Shown here piece by piece: positions 44,988-56,190 of a stretch of 64,000 bases of DNA; within the stretch, counting starts at the first letter, position 1, and the number at the start of each line of letters is the position of its first letter. The stretch is from contig NZ_JAJOZS010000007.1 in assembly GCF_021168555.1 (NCBI RefSeq), positions 124,001 to 188,000 of the forward strand, read 5' to 3'. The notes under the pieces are model-generated. The model made no database searches. It had not been told where the DNA came from and saw nothing but the letters and a program-made list of their open reading frames with translations. Source of the DNA: Stenotrophomonas sp. MMGLT7. GTDB lineage: Bacteria; Pseudomonadota; Gammaproteobacteria; Xanthomonadales; Xanthomonadaceae. The translations under genes were made by a program, and so were the position numbers.

Positions 44988-46553
44988 TCAGTGCCCGCCG
45001 CCGGCCGCAGCGCCGCGGGAGGCGGCGCCGAACGGCGGCTTGGCCAGCCACAGGAAGCCGATGATCAGCAGGAAGGTCCAGCCCAGCACGTAGAAGATGT
45101 CGTTGAAGCCCATCTGCGAGGCCTGGTGGTCGATCATGCTGTTGACCAGCGCGGCGCCGTGCTGCAGGTCGCCCTGCCCCATCGCCAGCACCTGGTCCTG
45201 CACCCCCGGCGCATAGCCGGAGATGTGCTCGGTGAGCTGCGCATGATGGACCTGCGTGCGCTTGGCCCACATGTAGGTGGTCAGCGAGGCGGCGAAGCTG
45301 CCGCCGAGCGTGCGCAGGAACGTCGCCAGGCCGGAGCCGGCGGCGATCTCGCGCCCGTCCAGGTCCGACAGCAGGATCTGCAGCACCGGCATGAAGAACA
45401 GCGCCACGCCCACGCCCATGACCAGCTGGATGCCGGCGACGTGGGCGAAGTCCACCTGCAGGTTGAAGCCCGAGCGCATGAAGCTGGTGAACGACAGGAA
45501 CACGAAGGCGACCGTGGCCAGCATGCGCATGTCGAAACGCGCGGCGTACTTGCCCACGAACGGGGTCATGATCACCGGCAGCACGCCGATCGGCGCGGTC
45601 GCCAGCCCGGCCCAGATGGCGGTGTAGCCCATGTCGCGCTGCAGCCACTGCGGGATCAGCAGCGCCACGCTGAAGAACGCCGCGTACGCCACCACCATCG
45701 CCAGCGTGCCGGCGCGGAAGTTGCGGTGGCGGAACAGGCGCAGGTCCACGATCGGGTCCTTGTCGGTCAGCTCCCAGATCAGGAACACCGCCAGCGCCAC
45801 CACCGAGATGCACGACAGCACCACGATGAGGTTCGAGCTGAACCAGTCCTCGTCGTTGCCCAGGTCCAGCACCAGCTGCAGCGCGCCGACGCCGATCACC
45901 AGCGTGACCAGGCCGACGTAGTCCATGCGCGGCTTCTCGATCTGCTCCGGGCGGCCGCGCATCTGCGCGCCCACCACCAGCGCCGCCAGCACGCCCAGCG
46001 GCACGTTGATCAGGAAGATCCACTCCCAGCTGTAGTTGTCGGTGATCCAGCCGCCGAGGATGGGCCCGGCGATCGGCGCCACCACCGTGACCATGGCCAG
46101 CAGGGCCAGCGCCTGCCCGCGTTTCTCGCGCGGGTAGATCGACACCAGCAGGCTCTGCGTGATCGGGTACATCGGCCCGGCGACGAAGCCCTGGATCGCG
46201 CGCGAGACCACCAGCATGCCCATGCTCTGCGCCAGCCCGCACAGCAGCGAGGCGGCGGCGAAGGCCAGCGTCGCCCACACGAACAGCCGGGTCTCGCCGA
46301 AGCGGCGGCTGAGGAAGCCGGTCAGCGGCAGCGCGATGGCGGTGCTGACCGCGAACGAGGTGATCACCCAGGTCGCCTGCTGCGAGCTGGCGCCGAGGTT
46401 GCCGGCGATGGTCGGCAGCGACACGTTGGCGATGGTGGTGTCGAGCACCTGCATGAACGAGGCCAGCGCCAGGCCCAGCGTGCACAGCAGGATGCTGGGC
46501 GGCAGGAACGGCGCGGCCGGGGCGGCTGCAGCGGTGGGAGCTTGCGAGGACAT
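44988..46553 (-). CDS. emrB: EmrB-type drug:proton antiporter (DHA2 MFS)
   Basis: Inner-membrane component of a tripartite multidrug pump. The 521-residue product has 14 predicted helices and DHA2 motifs: motif A GFLSRRFGETRLF, motif C near AMVTVVAPIAGPILGGWI, and ASFMQVLDTTIANVSLPTIA in helix 1. It is six bases from emrA on the same strand. The emrR-emrC-emrA-emrB layout equals the characterised emrRCAB of Stenotrophomonas maltophilia, which exports hydrophobic uncouplers and some antibiotics. Confidence 0.94.
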   Translation of the reverse strand: MSSQAPTAAAAPAAPFLPPSILLCTLGLALASFMQVLDTTIANVSLPTIAGNLGASSQQATWVITSFAVSTAIALPLTGFLSRRFGETRLFVWATLAFAAASLLCGLAQSMGMLVVSRAIQGFVAGPMYPITQSLLVSIYPREKRGQALALLAMVTVVAPIAGPILGGWITDNYSWEWIFLINVPLGVLAALVVGAQMRGRPEQIEKPRMDYVGLVTLVIGVGALQLVLDLGNDEDWFSSNLIVVLSCISVVALAVFLIWELTDKDPIVDLRLFRHRNFRAGTLAMVVAYAAFFSVALLIPQWLQRDMGYTAIWAGLATAPIGVLPVIMTPFVGKYAARFDMRMLATVAFVFLSFTSFMRSGFNLQVDFAHVAGIQLVMGVGVALFFMPVLQILLSDLDGREIAAGSGLATFLRTLGGSFAASLTTYMWAKRTQVHHAQLTEHISGYAPGVQDQVLAMGQGDLQHGAALVNSMIDHQASQMGFNDIFYVLGWTFLLIIGFLWLAKPPFGAASRGAAAGGGH

Positions 46554-46559
46554 GGCGGC

Positions 46560-47750
46560 TCAGCCGACCTTGGCCGTCTGCGGCAGGTTGTCGTGGATGA
46601 TCTTCTCGATCAGGTGGTCGGCGTCGTCCAGCTGGCGGGCGTAGACGTCGGTTGCATACACCTCGCCCTTTGCCGACTGCTGCGGCAGCACGCCACCCTG
46701 CCGGTCGTGCAGGTTCACCTTCACCTTCATCGACAGGCCGATGCGCAGCGGGTTCTCGGCCAGCTGCCTGGCGTCGATGGCGATGCGCACCGGCACGCGC
46801 TGCACGATCTTGATCCAGTTGCCGCTGGCGTTCTGCGCCGGCAGCAGCGAGAAGGCGCTGCCGGTGCCCATTCCCAGGCTCTGGATGTGGCCGGTATAGG
46901 ACACGCCGCCGCCGTACAGGTCCGACTCCAGCTCCACCGGCTGGCCCAGGCGCATGTGCTTGAGCTGGGTCTCCTTGAAGTTGGCCTCCACCCATACCTG
47001 CTCCAGCGGCACCACCGCCATCAGCGCGGCGCCCGGCTGCACGCGCTGGCCGACCTGCACCGCGCGGCGGGCGACGTAGCCGCTCACCGGCGCCAGGATC
47101 GCGCTGCGCGCGTTGTTCAGGTAGGCCTGGCGCAACTGCGCGGCGGCCGCCTGCACCTCCGGCTGGGTCGAGACCACGGTGTCGTCGACCAGCGCGCGGC
47201 TGCGCTCGAACTGCTCGCGCGAGCCGCTCACCGCGGCCTCGGCCGAGGCCAGTTCGTCGCGCGCGTGGGCCAGTTCCTCGTTGGAGATCGCGCCGGTGGC
47301 GGCCAGGTCGCGGCGCCGCTGGAAGTCGGCGCGGGCGCGCTGCAGCGTCACCTGCCGCGCGGACAGTTCGGCCTGCGCGCCCTCGACGCTGCGGTACAGG
47401 CCGCGCACCTGGCGCACGGTCCGCGCCAGGTTGGCCTGCGCCTGCTGCAGGGCGACCTGGGCGTCGGCCGGATCCAGCTGCACCAGCGGCTGGCCGCGCT
47501 CCACGCGCATGCCGTCCTCGGCGCCGATGGCGATCACGGTGCCGGCGACCATCGGCGTGATCTGCACCAGGTTGCCCTGGATGTAGGCGTCGTCGGTCTC
47601 CTCGTGCCAGCGGCCGCTGACGAAGTACCACAGGGCGAACACCGCCAGCGCCAGCACGACGACGACGAGGAGAATGCGCAGCAGCTTGCCGCGGCGGCTG
47701 GCGGGCTTGCCCGCAGCGGATGCGGAGCCCGGAGTGGAAGGCTGGTTCAT
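46560..47750 (-). CDS. emrA: EmrA-type periplasmic adaptor
   Basis: Membrane fusion protein connecting EmrB with the outer-membrane channel. The product is 396 residues, with one N-terminal helix (ILLVVVVLALAVFALWYFV), the conserved EETDDAYIQGNLVQITPMV, a coiled-coil hairpin, and LAPVSGYVARRAVQVGQRVQ plus VWVEANFKETQL, typical of EmrA. Gap to the outer-membrane gene is only about ten bases. Confidence 0.95.
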   Translation of the reverse strand: MNQPSTPGSASAAGKPASRRGKLLRILLVVVVLALAVFALWYFVSGRWHEETDDAYIQGNLVQITPMVAGTVIAIGAEDGMRVERGQPLVQLDPADAQVALQQAQANLARTVRQVRGLYRSVEGAQAELSARQVTLQRARADFQRRRDLAATGAISNEELAHARDELASAEAAVSGSREQFERSRALVDDTVVSTQPEVQAAAAQLRQAYLNNARSAILAPVSGYVARRAVQVGQRVQPGAALMAVVPLEQVWVEANFKETQLKHMRLGQPVELESDLYGGGVSYTGHIQSLGMGTGSAFSLLPAQNASGNWIKIVQRVPVRIAIDARQLAENPLRIGLSMKVKVNLHDRQGGVLPQQSAKGEVYATDVYARQLDDADHLIEKIIHDNLPQTAKVG

Positions 47751-47760
47751 GGCAAGACTC

Positions 47761-49248
47761 TCAGGAATGCGGGGTTTCTTGGGGGAAGGAAGCCTGGGCG
47801 GCGTCGACGGGCGCCAGGCCGCCGCCGAGCGCGCGGCTCAGGCGCGCGGCGGCCTGCAGCCGCTCGGACTGCAGCGCGGCCATGCGCTGGCGCGTGGCCA
47901 GCACCTGCTGCTGCACGGTCAGCGCCTCGACGTAGCTGCCGATGCCGGCGCGGTAGCGCTGCTGGGCCAGATCGAAGGCGGCGCCGGCCGTCTCCAGCGC
48001 CTGCGCCTGCGAGGCGAGCTGTCCCTGCAGCGACTGCAGCGCGTTGACCTGGTCGGCCACCTCGCGCAGCGCCTGCACCACCGCCTGGTTGTAGCCGGCC
48101 ACGGCCAGGTCGTACTGCGCATCGCGCTCGGCCAGGCCGGAACGCAGGCGGCCGCTGTCGAAGATCGGCAGGCTCAGCGCCGGGCCCAGGTAAGCGAAGG
48201 TGGAACCGCTCTTCAGCAGGTCGCCGACGTCCTTGGACGCCACGCCGGCCATCGCGGTGAGATTGAGGCTGGGGTAGAACTGCGCCTTGGCCGCGGCGAT
48301 GCCCTTGCCGGCCGCCTCGACCCGCCAGCGCGCGGCAACCACGTCCGGGCGCCGGCCGAGGAGATCGCTCGGCAGCACGCTGGGCAGTGCCACGGAGGTA
48401 TCAGGGGCCAGCTGCGGCCGGGCTATGGCCAGGCCGCGGTCCGGGCCCTGCCCGAGCAGTGCCGCCAGCGCGGTGCGGGCCTCGTCGATGGACTGCTGCG
48501 CGGCCTGCTGCTGTTGCTGCGCGGCCGGCACGCGGGCCTCGGCCTGGCGCAGCTGCACGTCGCTGTCGATGCCGGCGGCGCGGCGCTGGCGGGTCAGCTC
48601 CAGCAGCCGGCGCGAGCGCTCCAGCTCCTCGCTGGCCACGTCGTGCAGCCGCCAGGCGTAGTCGAGCTGGACGTAGGCCTGGACGATGCCGGCCGACAGG
48701 TCCAGCCGCGCCGCCTGCGCATCGACCTGCGCCGCATGCGCCTGGTCCACCGCCGCCTCCCAGGCCGCGCGCTTGCCGCCCCACAGGTCCAGCCCGTAGC
48801 TGAAGCTCAGCGCCGCGTGCCCGCTGCCGGCGTAGCTGCCGCCGAGTTCGTCGCCGACCATCGACTCGGGCAGGCGCAGGCCGGTGTAGCCGGCCGTCGC
48901 GCTCACTTCCGGGCCGCGCTGGGCGTTGGCCGAACCGGCCTGCGCCTGCGCCTGGCGCAGCCGCGCATCGGCCGCCTCCAGGCTCGGCGTGCCCTGCAGC
49001 GCCTCCTCGACCAGGGCGTCGAGCCGGGCATCGCCCAGCGTGCGCCACCACTGGCTGTCGGGCCAGGCGGCAGGCGTGAGCCGGACCTGCGAGAACGTGC
49101 CGGAGGCCTGCAGGCGGTCGGCGTCGAGCAGGCGTCCCTGCGGCTGCAGGCCGCGGCTGCTGGCGCAACCGGCCAGCGCCAGCGCCAGCAACGGAACGGC
49201 CAACGCCCGGGCAGGCCGGGCAACGGATCGAAACATGGGATTGGTCAT
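47761..49248 (-). CDS. emrC: Outer-membrane efflux lipoprotein of the Emr pump
   Basis: TolC/NodT-family channel. The 495-residue product has a lipoprotein signal ([11 protein letters not shown]), and OEP repeats ([44 protein letters not shown]-like [12 protein letters not shown]). It starts inside the emrR stop (ATGA overlap) and ends ten bases before emrA. Presence of its own outer-membrane gene distinguishes this operon from E. coli emrRAB, which relies on TolC. Confidence 0.93.
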
Positions 49249-49721
49249 GGTGTGTTGAGGGAATCGCGTACGCGGGACAACAGGGAAAGCAACTGCTCGC
49301 GCTCGGCGGGCGAGAGGTCGCGCATGGCATGGGCCATGCCTTCGTCGCCGGCCGCCTTGAGCCGCCGCCACATGGCGCGGCCCTCGTCGGTCAGCACGAT
49401 CTGCAATGCACGGCGGTCCTGGGCGTGGGGCTCGCGGCGCACGCAGCCCAGGGCCTCGAGCTTGTCCAGCAGCCGGGTGATGGCGCTGGGCGTCTGGTCG
49501 ATGGCCTGGGCCAGCTCGTTGGCCGTGCACGGCGACATGAACGACAGCATCTTCAACCCGAGGTAGTGGCCGAAGCAGATGTCCAGCTGTTGCTCGGCCA
49601 TGTTCTGCTCGAGCACCCGCACCAGGCCGTCGCGGACCTGCCGCAGCAGCAGCCCCAGGTTGGGGGGCTGCAGCGGGTACTGCAGCTTCGTGCAGCCGGC
49701 CTGGGCGGAGGAGGAGGTCAT
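49245..49721 (-). CDS. emrR: MarR-family repressor of the Emr operon
   Basis: Winged-helix repressor of 158 residues (ATG at 49721; a TTG at 49742 would add seven residues). It has the MarR fold with [20 protein letters not shown] recognition helix and wing [20 protein letters not shown], in which Asp-Arg-Arg is the conserved family signature. It precedes and overlaps emrC, so it probably represses its own operon. A perfect inverted repeat, 27 bases upstream of the ATG, overlaps the -35 element. Confidence 0.92.
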
Positions 49722-49747
49722 GGGAGCGGCATTTTGTTCCAAAAAAT

Positions 49748-52211: not shown

Positions 52212-54956
52212 TCAGCGGGAAGCCGTCGGCGCGGCCGCGGCCAGCGCCGAGCGGGCCCGCTCGATGAACGGCACGTCCTCCGGATCCGGGCTCTCGCCCA
52301 GTACGGAGATCGCCGCCTGCAGCAGGGGCGCGGCGCGTTGCCCATCGCCGCGTGCCGCCAGCGTGGTGGCGCGCAGCGCCGCCAGTCGCGCATGCTGCAG
52401 CGGTTCGCTGCCGATGGCCGCCTCCGCATGCGCCTGGAGCACGTCCAGCAGTCGCTCGGCCAGCGCCCACTCGCCCCGCGCCACGGCGTTGGCCGCATAC
52501 CAGAATCCCACCTGCCAGGTCTGCGGGTTGGCCGCGCCGTAGTCCTGCAGCAACTGTTCGTAGGCGCTGCGCAGCGGCGCCTCGGCGCGCTGCTGTTCGC
52601 CGGCCAGGTACAGCACCTGGCCCAGCGCCCCCTTCGCCGTCACCGCCATCACGTGGCCCTCGCCCAGGCGCGCGGCGATGCCCTCGGCGAAACGCTCGGC
52701 GTGCCGCACCGCGGCCGGCCAGTCATGCTGCCGGCGGGCGACGTACGACAGGCTCCTGACCAGGATCATGTTGTTGGTGCTGCCTTCGCCCAGCACCGCG
52801 ACGATGTCCTTCTGCGCCTGCAGCAGCAGTGCCTGCGCCTGCGCGTACTGGCCCTGGCGGCTGCGCGCGTCGGCGAGCACCTGCCGGGCGATGGCCAGGC
52901 TCAGCGGGTTGCGCCGCGGCCGCCGGCCGATCTCCTCGATGAGCCCGGCGGCGAGCTCGCCTGCCTCGCGCGGGCGCTCGGCGTGGTTGTAGAGCTGGCC
53001 CAGGTCCAGCCGCACCGAGTCCAGCTTGTCGGTCTGCTCCGGCCGGTACTGAGCCAGCAGCCGCGCACCGCGCTCGAACTCGGGAATCGCCCGCCCGGCA
53101 TCGCCCTTGTTGCCGTGGTAGTTGCCCCAGGCCAGCGCCCGGTATGCGTCCACCTCGGGCTCGGGATGGCCGGCCGCCTCCCGGTCCAGTTCCTGCAGCG
53201 TCCGCAGCGCCTCGTCGAAGCGTCCGCTGCGGGTCAGGACGCCGGCCAGCGAGGCCTGCGCCTTCAGCGTCTCCAGCCCGGCGGCGCCGTGCTCGCGAGT
53301 CAGGAGCACCAAGGCCTTGCGCACCTCGTCCTCGGCCGGAGCGAGCATCTCGATGCCGTTGAACAGCGCCGCCAGCGAAATGTGCATCGCCGCGGCCACC
53401 CGCGGCTGCGAGGCGAAGCGCGGACCGATGCGCTCGCGTGCGGCCAGCAGCACCTCGCGCACCGGGGCGTCGGCGCCGCCCCCGGCGATGAGCGGGTTGG
53501 CCTGCCCGATCACGTCCTTGCCGATGAACTCGTTGAGCGCGGTGGCCTTCTCCAGTTCCAGTTGCGCGACACGGCCGGCCTGCTGCGCGCGATGGTGGAA
53601 CCACAACGAAGTCGCCAGGCCCAACGCCAGGATCGCCATCGAGGCCGCCACCAGCGGCCGCCGCGCACGGGCACGCAGCAGCGCCTCGCGGTCGCGCCGC
53701 GCACGCGCCTGCGCCTCGGCGGCACGGGCGGCGTCCTCGCGCCGGCGCTGCAGCCCGCGCAGCCGCACCGCCAGCTCCGGCACCGACGCCAGCCGGTGTG
53801 CGGGATCGCCATCGGTAGCCAGGGCGATGTCCTCGCGCAGCAGGGCGTCGTCGATGTCCTTCTCCCAGCCCGGCGCCATCGGCCTGCCGGGATCGCCGGC
53901 GAGCAGCTGGTACAGCACCAGCCCCAGCGCGTACACGTCGCCCTGCACGGTCTGCGGACCGCCGGCGACGACCTCGGGCGGCAGGTACAGCGGCGTGCCG
54001 GAGCCGGCGTCCGAGCCGGAGGGACGGGTGGCGGCGGGATCGTGGCGGGTGATGCCCAGTTCGTCCAGCCGCCCGGGATCGAGCAGGCTGCCGCTGCCGA
54101 AGTCGGCCAGGCGCGCGTGCCAGCCGCCGTCGGCCGCGGCGATCAGGATGTTGGCCGGCTTGATGTCCTTGTGCAGCACGCCGAGCTGGTGCGCGGCGGC
54201 CACCGCGTCGGCGAACTGCAGGAACAGCTGCAGGCGCTGGTCGCGCGGCATGCCCTGCAGGTGCGTGCGCGACCACTGCAGCAGGTCCTGCCCATGCCAG
54301 GCGTACTCCAGGAAGAACGGCGCGTCCTCGAAGTGCCAGTCCAGCAGCCGGGCGAAACCGGACCGCGTCGCCTCGCCCGCGGTCGCCAGCAGCCGGGCCA
54401 GGGTCGCCTCGCGCCTCAGCCCGCGCAGCCCGGCGCTGCCGGCGGCGTACTTGTAGACGCGACGCTCGCCGGTCTTGAGGTGCTCGCCCAGCCATACCTC
54501 GTTGCCGTGCGACCCGCCCAGGCGCTCGCGCAGGACGAAGTGCGCGCGCTGCGCAACCGGCTGGCCCGCGCGCAGCAGCGGCGCCGCCGCGACCCGGCTG
54601 CGGACCACGACGCGCTCGCGCATGCCGTCGAGGCGGTAACCCAGGCGCGGCTGGGTCGCCAGCAACTCGGCATTGGCCGGGCCGAACGCCTTCCTCAGCT
54701 TGTTCACCGCATTGGGCAGTACCTTGTCGACGGTGACCCGCCCGGCCCAGACCTGGGCGAACAGTTCCTCCTTGGTCACCACCTCGCCGGCATGCCGCAG
54801 CAGGCAGGCCAGCACCTCCAGCGCGCGCCGCTCCACCTCGACCGGCGCGCCGTCCACGTACAGCTGGAACCGCGCCTCGTCGAACTCCGCCGTGCCGAAG
54901 CGGTAGCGGTATTCGAACGCCCGTTCCGCGGCCTCCCGTGCAGCGGGATCGCTCAT
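52212..54956 (-). CDS. Winged-helix/Ser-Thr kinase/TPR transmembrane fusion
   Basis: The 914-residue product joins four modules. Residues 15-110 are an OmpR/CadC-type winged helix (ERRALEVLACLLRHAGEVVT, TVDKVLPNAVNKLRKAFG). Residues 138-400 are a Hanks-type kinase with Lys169 in RRVYKYA, catalytic HKDIKPAN (262-269), DFG at 285-287 and PPEVVAGGPQTVQGDVYALG. A membrane helix spans about 434-454 (PLVAASMAILALGLATSLWF). The rest is periplasmic TPR-like repeats. The ATG is preceded by GGAGG at nine bases. No partner is next to it. It could be a membrane-bound transcription factor gated by phosphorylation. Confidence 0.88.
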   Translation of the reverse strand: MSDPAAREAAERAFEYRYRFGTAEFDEARFQLYVDGAPVEVERRALEVLACLLRHAGEVVTKEELFAQVWAGRVTVDKVLPNAVNKLRKAFGPANAELLATQPRLGYRLDGMRERVVVRSRVAAAPLLRAGQPVAQRAHFVLRERLGGSHGNEVWLGEHLKTGERRVYKYAAGSAGLRGLRREATLARLLATAGEATRSGFARLLDWHFEDAPFFLEYAWHGQDLLQWSRTHLQGMPRDQRLQLFLQFADAVAAAHQLGVLHKDIKPANILIAAADGGWHARLADFGSGSLLDPGRLDELGITRHDPAATRPSGSDAGSGTPLYLPPEVVAGGPQTVQGDVYALGLVLYQLLAGDPGRPMAPGWEKDIDDALLREDIALATDGDPAHRLASVPELAVRLRGLQRRREDAARAAEAQARARRDREALLRARARRPLVAASMAILALGLATSLWFHHRAQQAGRVAQLELEKATALNEFIGKDVIGQANPLIAGGGADAPVREVLLAARERIGPRFASQPRVAAAMHISLAALFNGIEMLAPAEDEVRKALVLLTREHGAAGLETLKAQASLAGVLTRSGRFDEALRTLQELDREAAGHPEPEVDAYRALAWGNYHGNKGDAGRAIPEFERGARLLAQYRPEQTDKLDSVRLDLGQLYNHAERPREAGELAAGLIEEIGRRPRRNPLSLAIARQVLADARSRQGQYAQAQALLLQAQKDIVAVLGEGSTNNMILVRSLSYVARRQHDWPAAVRHAERFAEGIAARLGEGHVMAVTAKGALGQVLYLAGEQQRAEAPLRSAYEQLLQDYGAANPQTWQVGFWYAANAVARGEWALAERLLDVLQAHAEAAIGSEPLQHARLAALRATTLAARGDGQRAAPLLQAAISVLGESPDPEDVPFIERARSALAAAAPTASR

Positions 54957-55172
54957 CCGGTGTTCCTCCAGTCGCTCATCCACCCGATCCGGCACCTGCC
55001 GGCAGCCGACACAGGCCCTGACGCCGGCGCCCCTGCCGTCCCGTTACCGGACGATACCAGCGTGCAGCGCGGCGTCTGCCGGCGTTACCGAACCGTTACC
55101 GGAAAGTACCACCGCCGCGCGGACGCCGCCCCTATGGTTCCCGCTTCCCGACGAGCCCCAGGAGCGCGACTC

Positions 55173-55679
55173 ATGAACCCACATGCGAATCTTCCCGGAT
55201 GGAACGGTGCCCGCTCGCCCGCCGCGGCGCGGACAGGGCTTCGCCCGCCTCGGCCATGGCGCGGCTGCGGCCGGGGATGGATGCTCGGGGCGCTGCTCGC
55301 CCTGGCCTGCCCCTCGCCCGCCCTCGCACAGTCCGGCGAAAGCGAGGTCCGCCGCGGCGTCGTCACCGCGATGACCCCGGTGGCCAAGAAGGGCGGACTG
55401 AGCAGCGGCACCATGCGCAGGCTGGGCGCCAGCCTCGGGCGCACGCTCGGCACGCGACTGGCCGGCAGCGAGGGCTATCGCACCGGCAACGACCTCGGCG
55501 CCGACCTGGGCGAGAGCATGGCCTCCACCGGCGGCGGCCGCCACCTGCTGGAGGTCCGCCTGGACGGCGGCGGCGACATCGCCCTGGAGACGGAAACCGC
55601 GAGCCTGACAGGGGTCTCGGTCGGCGCCCGGGTGCGGATCATCGGCAGCGGCAGGCAGGCGCTGGTCCGCGCCGAATGA
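55173..55679 (+). CDS. Hypothetical exported protein
   Basis: The 168-residue product starts at an ATG with AGGAG eight bases upstream. A long N-terminal signal-like segment (GWMLGALLALACPSPALAQ) is followed by a region with two Gly-rich repeats (LGASLGRTLGTRLAG, LGADLGESMASTGG) and a small beta domain ending GVSVGARVRIIGSGRQAL. The Gly-zipper-like part recalls SlyB-type envelope proteins, but the match is weak. Function unknown. Confidence 0.7.
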   Translation: MNPHANLPGWNGARSPAAARTGLRPPRPWRGCGRGWMLGALLALACPSPALAQSGESEVRRGVVTAMTPVAKKGGLSSGTMRRLGASLGRTLGTRLAGSEGYRTGNDLGADLGESMASTGGGRHLLEVRLDGGGDIALETETASLTGVSVGARVRIIGSGRQALVRAE

Positions 55680-55806: not shown

Positions 55807-56190
55807 ATGAAGATCGGAACCATCGCAAGAACGCTGGCGCGCGCCGCCGTGCCGGCCATCGCGCTCGCGGCGAGCGGCGGATGCGCGTCGGTGGCGGTCA
55901 CCTCCGATACCCTCGCGGAGCGCACCGCGTTCGCCCTGGGAATCGGCACCCAGGAATTCACCATCAGCGACCGCGTCGACAGCGGCGTGAGGACCGACTA
56001 CCGGGTACAGACCCGCGACGGCACCCGCTACGCCTGCTACGTCACCGGCATCGTCAGCGTCACCGGCCGCAGCGTCTCCGACGCGATCTGCTCGCGCCAG
56101 GGCGCGGCTACCGAAGCTGCGAAGCCCGCCGATGCGGGCAGCGCACCGGCCAGCTGCAACGCCTTGCTCAAGGCCGCCGGCAAGTGCTGA
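55807..56190 (+). CDS. Small lipoprotein, function unknown
   Basis: The 127-residue product has a lipoprotein signal with lipobox ASGGC (Cys26), a compact domain with Cys in RYACYVTG and AICSRQG, and a C-terminal SCNALLKAAGKC. AGGAG precedes the ATG. The four Cys in the mature part could form two disulphides. I do not recognise the family. Confidence 0.72.
   Translation: MKIGTIARTLARAAVPAIALAASGGCASVAVTSDTLAERTAFALGIGTQEFTISDRVDSGVRTDYRVQTRDGTRYACYVTGIVSVTGRSVSDAICSRQGAATEAAKPADAGSAPASCNALLKAAGKC

Follow-up and report, generated by a model that had tools for sequence, protein, structure and literature searches.

What does a Hanks-type Ser/Thr kinase do when it shares a single polypeptide with a DNA-binding domain? 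The question is raised by a minus-strand gene (52212..54956, stop included) in the window, the 64,000-nucleotide stretch of contig NZ_JAJOZS010000007.1 of Stenotrophomonas sp. MMGLT7 analysed here. The gene encodes a 914-aa protein in which a winged helix (wHTH), a kinase, a membrane helix (TM) and a TPR region follow one another. Among the published cases compared here, as described in the parts of those reports drawn upon, bacterial Ser/Thr kinases reach transcription through phosphorylation of separate regulators and with broad effects. The window protein looks like a self-contained phosphorylation-linked gene switch. Our reading, to which we assign a probability of roughly 0.6 as a whole, is that it spans the inner membrane once, is a one-component regulator carrying its own Hanks kinase, acts on the divergently transcribed gene next door and is gated by phosphorylation.

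The gene starts at ATG 54956, preceded by a Shine-Dalgarno-like stretch (GGAGGAAC), and stops at 52212. It is plainly coding, because GC at the three codon positions of the 914-aa frame is 0.79/0.50/0.93; this codon bias, the Pfam scores and the end-to-end homologues rule out a chance or misread frame. The initial annotation had described a fusion of DNA-binding domain, kinase, membrane helix and TPRs, with the kinase between the first and third of these. Its coordinates for the gene are exact, and Pfam and hydropathy bore the description out: PF00486 at residues 37-109, then PF00069, then a membrane helix at residues 435-453. PF00486 and PF00069 were both present in 16/16 aligned homologues. 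An AlphaFold model of the full protein had a mean pLDDT of 78 and a pTM of 0.49, values at which the placement of domains relative to one another is unreliable, and a Foldseek search with the whole model as query gave separate TPR and kinase matches among the matches listed. Since kinase-TM-TPR is in itself a common arrangement among bacterial kinases, what is unusual here is the winged helix in front. The annotation's phrase that TPRs replace a CadC-type sensor is better turned around, into a kinase-TM-TPR receptor that acquired a CadC-type head. According to the part of a published paper drawn on here, TPR is one of the domains most often found attached to prokaryotic kinases (PMC2877116).

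The winged helix (54630..54848, minus strand) scored 46.1 bits against a cut-off of 26.2 for Trans_reg_C (PF00486), and its modelled topology of four strands, three helices and two wing strands matches the order of OmpR/PhoB-type domains. The membrane helix (53598..53654, minus strand) is the only hydrophobic segment of the protein and carries an Arg-rich flank on its N side; Arg432 and Pro434 are invariant across 16 sequences. Such a helix was called in 82/93 homologues, with more Lys and Arg on the N side in 74 of the 82, and the AlphaFold model has a long helix spanning the region. These features support the membrane anchoring that had been proposed. Membrane orientation is assigned by the positive-inside rule, and because the Arg-rich stretch precedes the segment, the winged helix and kinase are predicted to be cytoplasmic and the TPR part periplasmic. 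The last of these is a helical solenoid (residues ~499-908; 52233..53462, minus strand) that scored 40.9 bits for TPR_12 (Pfam cut-off 30.1), was modelled confidently, mostly at high confidence, and gave fold matches to TPR proteins. The predicted topology, with an N-terminal winged helix, a single membrane helix and an outer C-terminal part, is that of CadC/ToxR-like proteins.

The kinase domain (residues ~138-400; 53757..54545, minus strand) scored 69.3 bits for PF00069 (cut-off 31.7). It had been called a complete Ser/Thr kinase on the strength of HKDIKPAN and DFG (HKD at 54165-54173, DFG at 54096-54104); the catalytic residues are indeed all present, while the Gly-rich loop is degenerate. 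The ATP-site Lys is K169 and the alpha-C Glu is E183, with H262, D264, N269, D285-F-G and P327-E328 also in place. Across 93 wHTH-kinases, K169 and E183 are kept in all 93, D264 and N269 in 92 and the DFG Asp in 90, and the PE motif is nearly invariant as well. The loop reads LGGSHGNEVWL instead of the GxGxxG pattern, and Gly at position 149 occurs in just 30/93 homologues. HKD replaces HRD in 80/93 wHTH-kinases, and DLG replaces DFG in some members. Nucleotide loops of this degenerate kind also vary among active kinases, so we have kept the domain filed as a divergent Hanks kinase, apparently an enzyme that is active though its nucleotide loop is unusual. The conserved residues argue for activity and are silent on the direction of control. 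The protein is the sole Hanks kinase above the Pfam cut-off in its own genome, which also encodes one PP2C above the cut-off; as a putative counterpart, this would be enough for a reversible switch.

The arrangement is widespread. At least 43 of the 297 genomes of the window's family, its own included, have a match at E <=1e-60 that spans both winged helix and kinase; this count, made by eye, is a lower bound given that only three candidates were scored per genome. Homologues span Alpha-, Beta- and Gammaproteobacteria and Acidobacteria, and a scan of named genomes gave relatives aligned from the winged helix onward in Dokdonella, Rhodanobacter, Pseudoxanthomonas, Luteimonas, Parahaliea, Bowmanella, Mitsuaria, Rubrivivax, Hyphomonas, Sphingopyxis and Acidobacteria. 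A search of plasmid records at 1e-40 found no match. In a kinase-domain tree of 100 rows built by a quick method, a branch with SH-aLRT support of 100 separated 74 rows from 26 other kinases; the 74 comprise all 64 wHTH rows, 8 cyclase-like rows and 2 rows with neither domain. These last two are apparently L078 and L087 (its second piece), genes that seem broken or frame-shifted. The homologues and the tree rule out a recent one-off fusion or an assembly artefact, and the fusion of winged helix to kinase is old and kept. Several homologues (G293, with L027 and L056; G220, with L013; L087; L078) appear to be disrupted by stop codons, frame shifts or the loss of 5' sequence.

The nearest kinase relatives lacking a winged helix (L084, L085, L086, L088, L092, L093, L096 and L097) bear an N-terminal domain that we take to resemble a cyclase, although Pfam made no call on it at E 0.001 in the two proteins scanned; in the tree, a branch with support 99 sets the 8 cyclase-like rows apart. 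These proteins (L084 and L096, for example) share a similar linker ahead of the kinase and have the cyclase-like domain where the window protein has its winged helix. The N-terminal module on these kinases thus seems, from such comparisons, to be exchangeable. Kinase-TM-TPR proteins with no winged helix at all occur in the same bacterial family.

The annotation had suggested looking for conserved promoter sites near homologues. That search was positive. The intergenic region that separates the kinase gene from its divergent neighbour has a predicted operator (55084..55110, plus strand) of two GTTACC direct repeats 11 bp apart (55084 and 55095), forming an 8-bp exact repeat at lag 11, with a weaker GTACC about 10 bp further on. 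A pattern search gave a second, weaker pair of half-sites (GTTACC and GATACC, 10 bp apart) at 55043..55058 on the same strand. Repeats of GGTAAC or GGTCAC with the 11-bp spacing are shared by five relatives (L004-L008), TTCAAG-N5-TTCAAG occurs in a second clade, and other lineages have different half-sites at the same 11-bp period. The period was assessed in the 200 bp upstream of each gene, with the last ATG before the domain as start codon; the wHTH representatives are below 75% identity. Exact direct repeats of >=7 bp at lag 11 preceded 14/56 wHTH-kinases and 0/38 kinases without the winged helix (Fisher p 6e-4). Over the remaining lags, with 10, 22 and 33 set aside, counts in the same 56 representatives averaged 1.7 and peaked at 5; lag 10 gave 5 and lag 22 gave 4. 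At >=6 bp the counts were 19/56 versus 1/38 (p 2e-4). Kinases lacking the winged helix have an excess of their own at lag 12 (8/38), probably due to coding sequence. No lag-11 run of >=6 bp was found in the 200 bp upstream of 37/56 wHTH representatives, and the operator is therefore evident only in some lineages.

Head-to-tail repeats about 11 bp apart, the arrangement characteristic of the OmpR/PhoB domain, were accordingly predicted and are clear in about a third of the representatives. In the portion of the literature drawn on here, OmpR/PhoB proteins are described as binding direct repeats, and M. tuberculosis PhoP as recognising 7-bp motifs with a 4-bp spacer, 11 bp in all, of which three or four can be bound in a row (PMC4832192). 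Recognition helices of the VDKVLPNAVNKLR type pair with GGTAAC/GGTCAC sites and those of the VDHVLATAVGKLRK type with TTCAAG sites. A half-site that changes with the recognition helix is the direction expected of a cognate site, and this covariation of the predicted sites supports the DNA-binding role ascribed to the protein; given the common descent of sites and helices, the loci do not count as separate pieces of evidence for the match. An element resembling CGTGAGGAC recurs in or beside the operator repeats in distant lineages (L046, L060, L061, L010 and others) and is possibly a further half-site.

How many genes might such a site serve? GGTAAC-N5-GGTAAC has a single exact copy in its own 4.27-Mb genome, at the predicted operator. 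Six genomes of the clade hold 5 copies, spread over 4 of them, and 4 of the 5 lie upstream of the kinase gene; the reversed-pattern control gave 1. For TTCAAG-N5-TTCAAG, 18 exact sites were found in 14 of the 16 genomes of that clade (reversed-pattern control, 0): 15 directly upstream of a wHTH-kinase gene, 1 nearby before a lipoprotein gene and 2 elsewhere. In the other two genomes the position is taken by a variant that differs in one letter, and a genome with two copies of the wHTH-kinase gene has two sites. The nearby site, at L135:5899-6411, is a second copy of the TTCAAG operator and precedes a second lipoprotein gene adjoining the wHTH-kinase locus. When the GGTAAC pattern was relaxed to 3 mismatches, it gave no excess of sites over the reversed control, and a large regulon is unsupported. 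The predicted operator is nearly unique per genome.

The geometry of the operator points to the divergent gene. An anchored comparison of 21 upstream regions placed a -10-like TATGGT of that gene at 55133..55138 (plus strand), 49 bp from the operator start. At TTCAAG loci, a -10-like hexamer lies 49-50 bp from the operator start, toward the divergent gene, in 12/13 cases, the 13th being tied; in GGTAAC-type relatives the distance is 59-60 bp in 7/7, against 49 in the window, and for all these figures the weights used to score hexamers were chosen after the alignments had been inspected. The two distances differ by about one helical turn, and the intervening spacer is not conserved. Other lineages follow the fixed distance only patchily, the best hexamer lying at 49 in just 2/20 loci. 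From operator to kinase ATG the distance in the TTCAAG clade varies from 47 to 108 bp, a spread that rules out the kinase-gene promoter as a target of fixed geometry. The divergent gene is the better-supported target because the geometry is fixed toward it and variable toward the kinase ATG. A scan of the window's intergenic region for a consensus sigma-70 promoter found none, a result that an activator-dependent promoter would also give. A TATNAT-like element is often present a few bases ahead of the kinase ATG (L009-L024), as in leaderless transcripts.

The likely target (55173..55679, plus strand) encodes a short protein whose signal-peptide-like hydrophobic segment comes late and ends in ALAQS; divergent products, this one included, gave no Pfam match. 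By a crude rule, a divergent ORF with a signal-peptide-like start was present at a distance of up to 450 bp at 59/93 wHTH loci versus 7/47 loci of kinases without the winged helix; the window's own divergent gene failed the rule because of its long N-region. Reading by eye of 39 listed loci gave 30 exported or lipoprotein-like products of several unrelated kinds, 3 membrane proteins and 6 that were not exported or were ambiguous. The next gene on the same strand (55807..56190), an open frame for a lipoprotein-like product of 127 aa with no Pfam match, is a possible further target. These regulators probably govern, and perhaps also sense, an envelope protein encoded by the neighbouring gene. 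Elsewhere in the window, at 44988-49742, are genes that we take to resemble an EmrAB/TolC-type efflux set with a MarR-like regulator.

The domains, catalytic residues, conserved repeats, spacing, geometry and uniqueness are all read directly from the sequence, and they suggest the following mechanism. With the winged helix and kinase facing the cytoplasm and the TPR solenoid facing the periplasm, copies of the winged helix would bind head to tail on the 11-bp direct repeats between the kinase and divergent genes; the protein probably binds these adjacent repeats to control the neighbouring gene. Bound winged helices would act on the divergent promoter, usually that of an exported protein, presumably by activation rather than repression. 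The periplasmic TPR part may sense a ligand or protein, perhaps the exported divergent product itself, and the sensed state would alter dimerisation and kinase activity. Autophosphorylation of the kinase, linker or winged helix would then alter tandem DNA binding or activation. In the parts of the published work consulted, OmpR-type regulators are phosphorylated by separate Ser/Thr kinases, and control of such proteins by Ser/Thr phosphorylation is therefore chemically possible (PMC4601284, PMC6213207). A bolder version, which we put forward tentatively and regard as rather doubtful, is a widespread class of one-protein phospho-switches in which the operator doubles as an assembly platform, kinases that autophosphorylate in trans and winged helices arranged in tandem regulate one another, and the exported product reports back through the periplasmic TPR part, closing a loop across the membrane at a single dedicated promoter.

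That phosphorylation gates DNA binding is our inference, and the reverse direction is a live rival, albeit one we consider unlikely. Winged helices assembled on the operator would join the kinase domains and switch the kinase on, the main output would be phosphorylation of other proteins, and the DNA site would serve as a scaffold or feedback point. A precedent is YabT of B. subtilis, a membrane Hanks kinase activated by DNA binding according to the part of its description drawn on here (PMC3708118). Nearly invariant catalytic residues, the status of sole Hanks kinase beside one PP2C and an operator so nearly unique that no large regulon follows would all suit such a protein. Yet the operator keeps a fixed distance from the -10 of the divergent gene, as a transcription factor site would, the kinase has no known substrate, and a single DNA site would switch on very few kinase molecules.

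The two activities might also have little to do with each other, the kinase signalling elsewhere and the winged helix merely adjusting expression. In its full form this would be an ordinary kinase-TPR receptor whose winged helix autoregulates its own gene or a neighbour, with no crosstalk between kinase and DNA binding. The receptors of the same bacterial family that do without a winged helix fit this account, as does the fact that nearly every counted copy of the predicted operator precedes the kinase gene itself. It is nonetheless improbable in our estimate, as the wHTH-kinases form a distinct kinase clade that has retained its N-terminal domain across phyla, and the geometry is fixed toward the divergent gene while the kinase ATG drifts. 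Least probable is that the protein is a CadC-like regulator in which the kinase domain, as a pseudokinase, has a structural or nucleotide-sensing role. The degenerate Gly loop, the HKD motif and the occasional DLG lean that way; against them stand the near-invariance of the Lys, Glu, catalytic Asp, Asn, metal-binding Asp and PE motif, and the fact that HKD is common in comparison kinases without the winged helix too (27/51 rows). We retain the phospho-gated regulator of the divergent gene as the preferred reading.

Several known systems resemble parts of this protein. CadC/ToxR-type regulators share the N-terminal OmpR-type winged helix, the one membrane helix and the C-terminal periplasmic part, and the NCBIfam CadC model matched residues 31-110 at 35.2 bits, far under its cut-off of 400. 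In CadC/ToxR-like proteins the winged helix is tied to the membrane by a non-enzymatic linker, with no kinase, whereas the window protein has a Hanks kinase of ~260 residues before the membrane and a TPR solenoid outside; because of that kinase we do not file it as CadC. PknB/PASTA-type and kinase-TM-TPR receptors have the cytoplasmic kinase, single membrane helix and outer C-terminal part, and PknB was matched in sequence and, among the matches listed, in fold; the window protein adds the winged helix, a predicted operator and a distinct kinase clade. The literature searched gave no account of a fusion between an OmpR-type winged helix and a Hanks kinase; its partial coverage makes this weak evidence of absence, and domain databases may list the architecture. 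Kinase, DNA-binding domain, anchor and outer domain lie in one chain, the predicted DNA site is nearly unique and a single candidate target stands out, so that the effect of a Hanks kinase on DNA binding becomes directly testable with a single protein, operator and reporter. Recognition helices and half-sites that change in pairs also form a natural data set on how OmpR-type domains choose their DNA. YabT is likewise a membrane Hanks kinase that binds DNA, as is predicted for the window protein, but in the part of its description drawn on here it does so through a Lys/Arg-rich stretch, was assayed with random-sequence DNA and is not credited with a winged helix and operator (PMC3708118). RitR, GraR and EmbR, as far as the cited accounts were drawn upon, are OmpR-type DNA-binding proteins with Ser/Thr kinase input from a separate protein, where the window protein combines both in one chain (PMC4601284, PMC6213207). 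Set beside these systems, each part of the window protein is known and the arrangement is unusual, and the main addition is a well-supported predicted operator.
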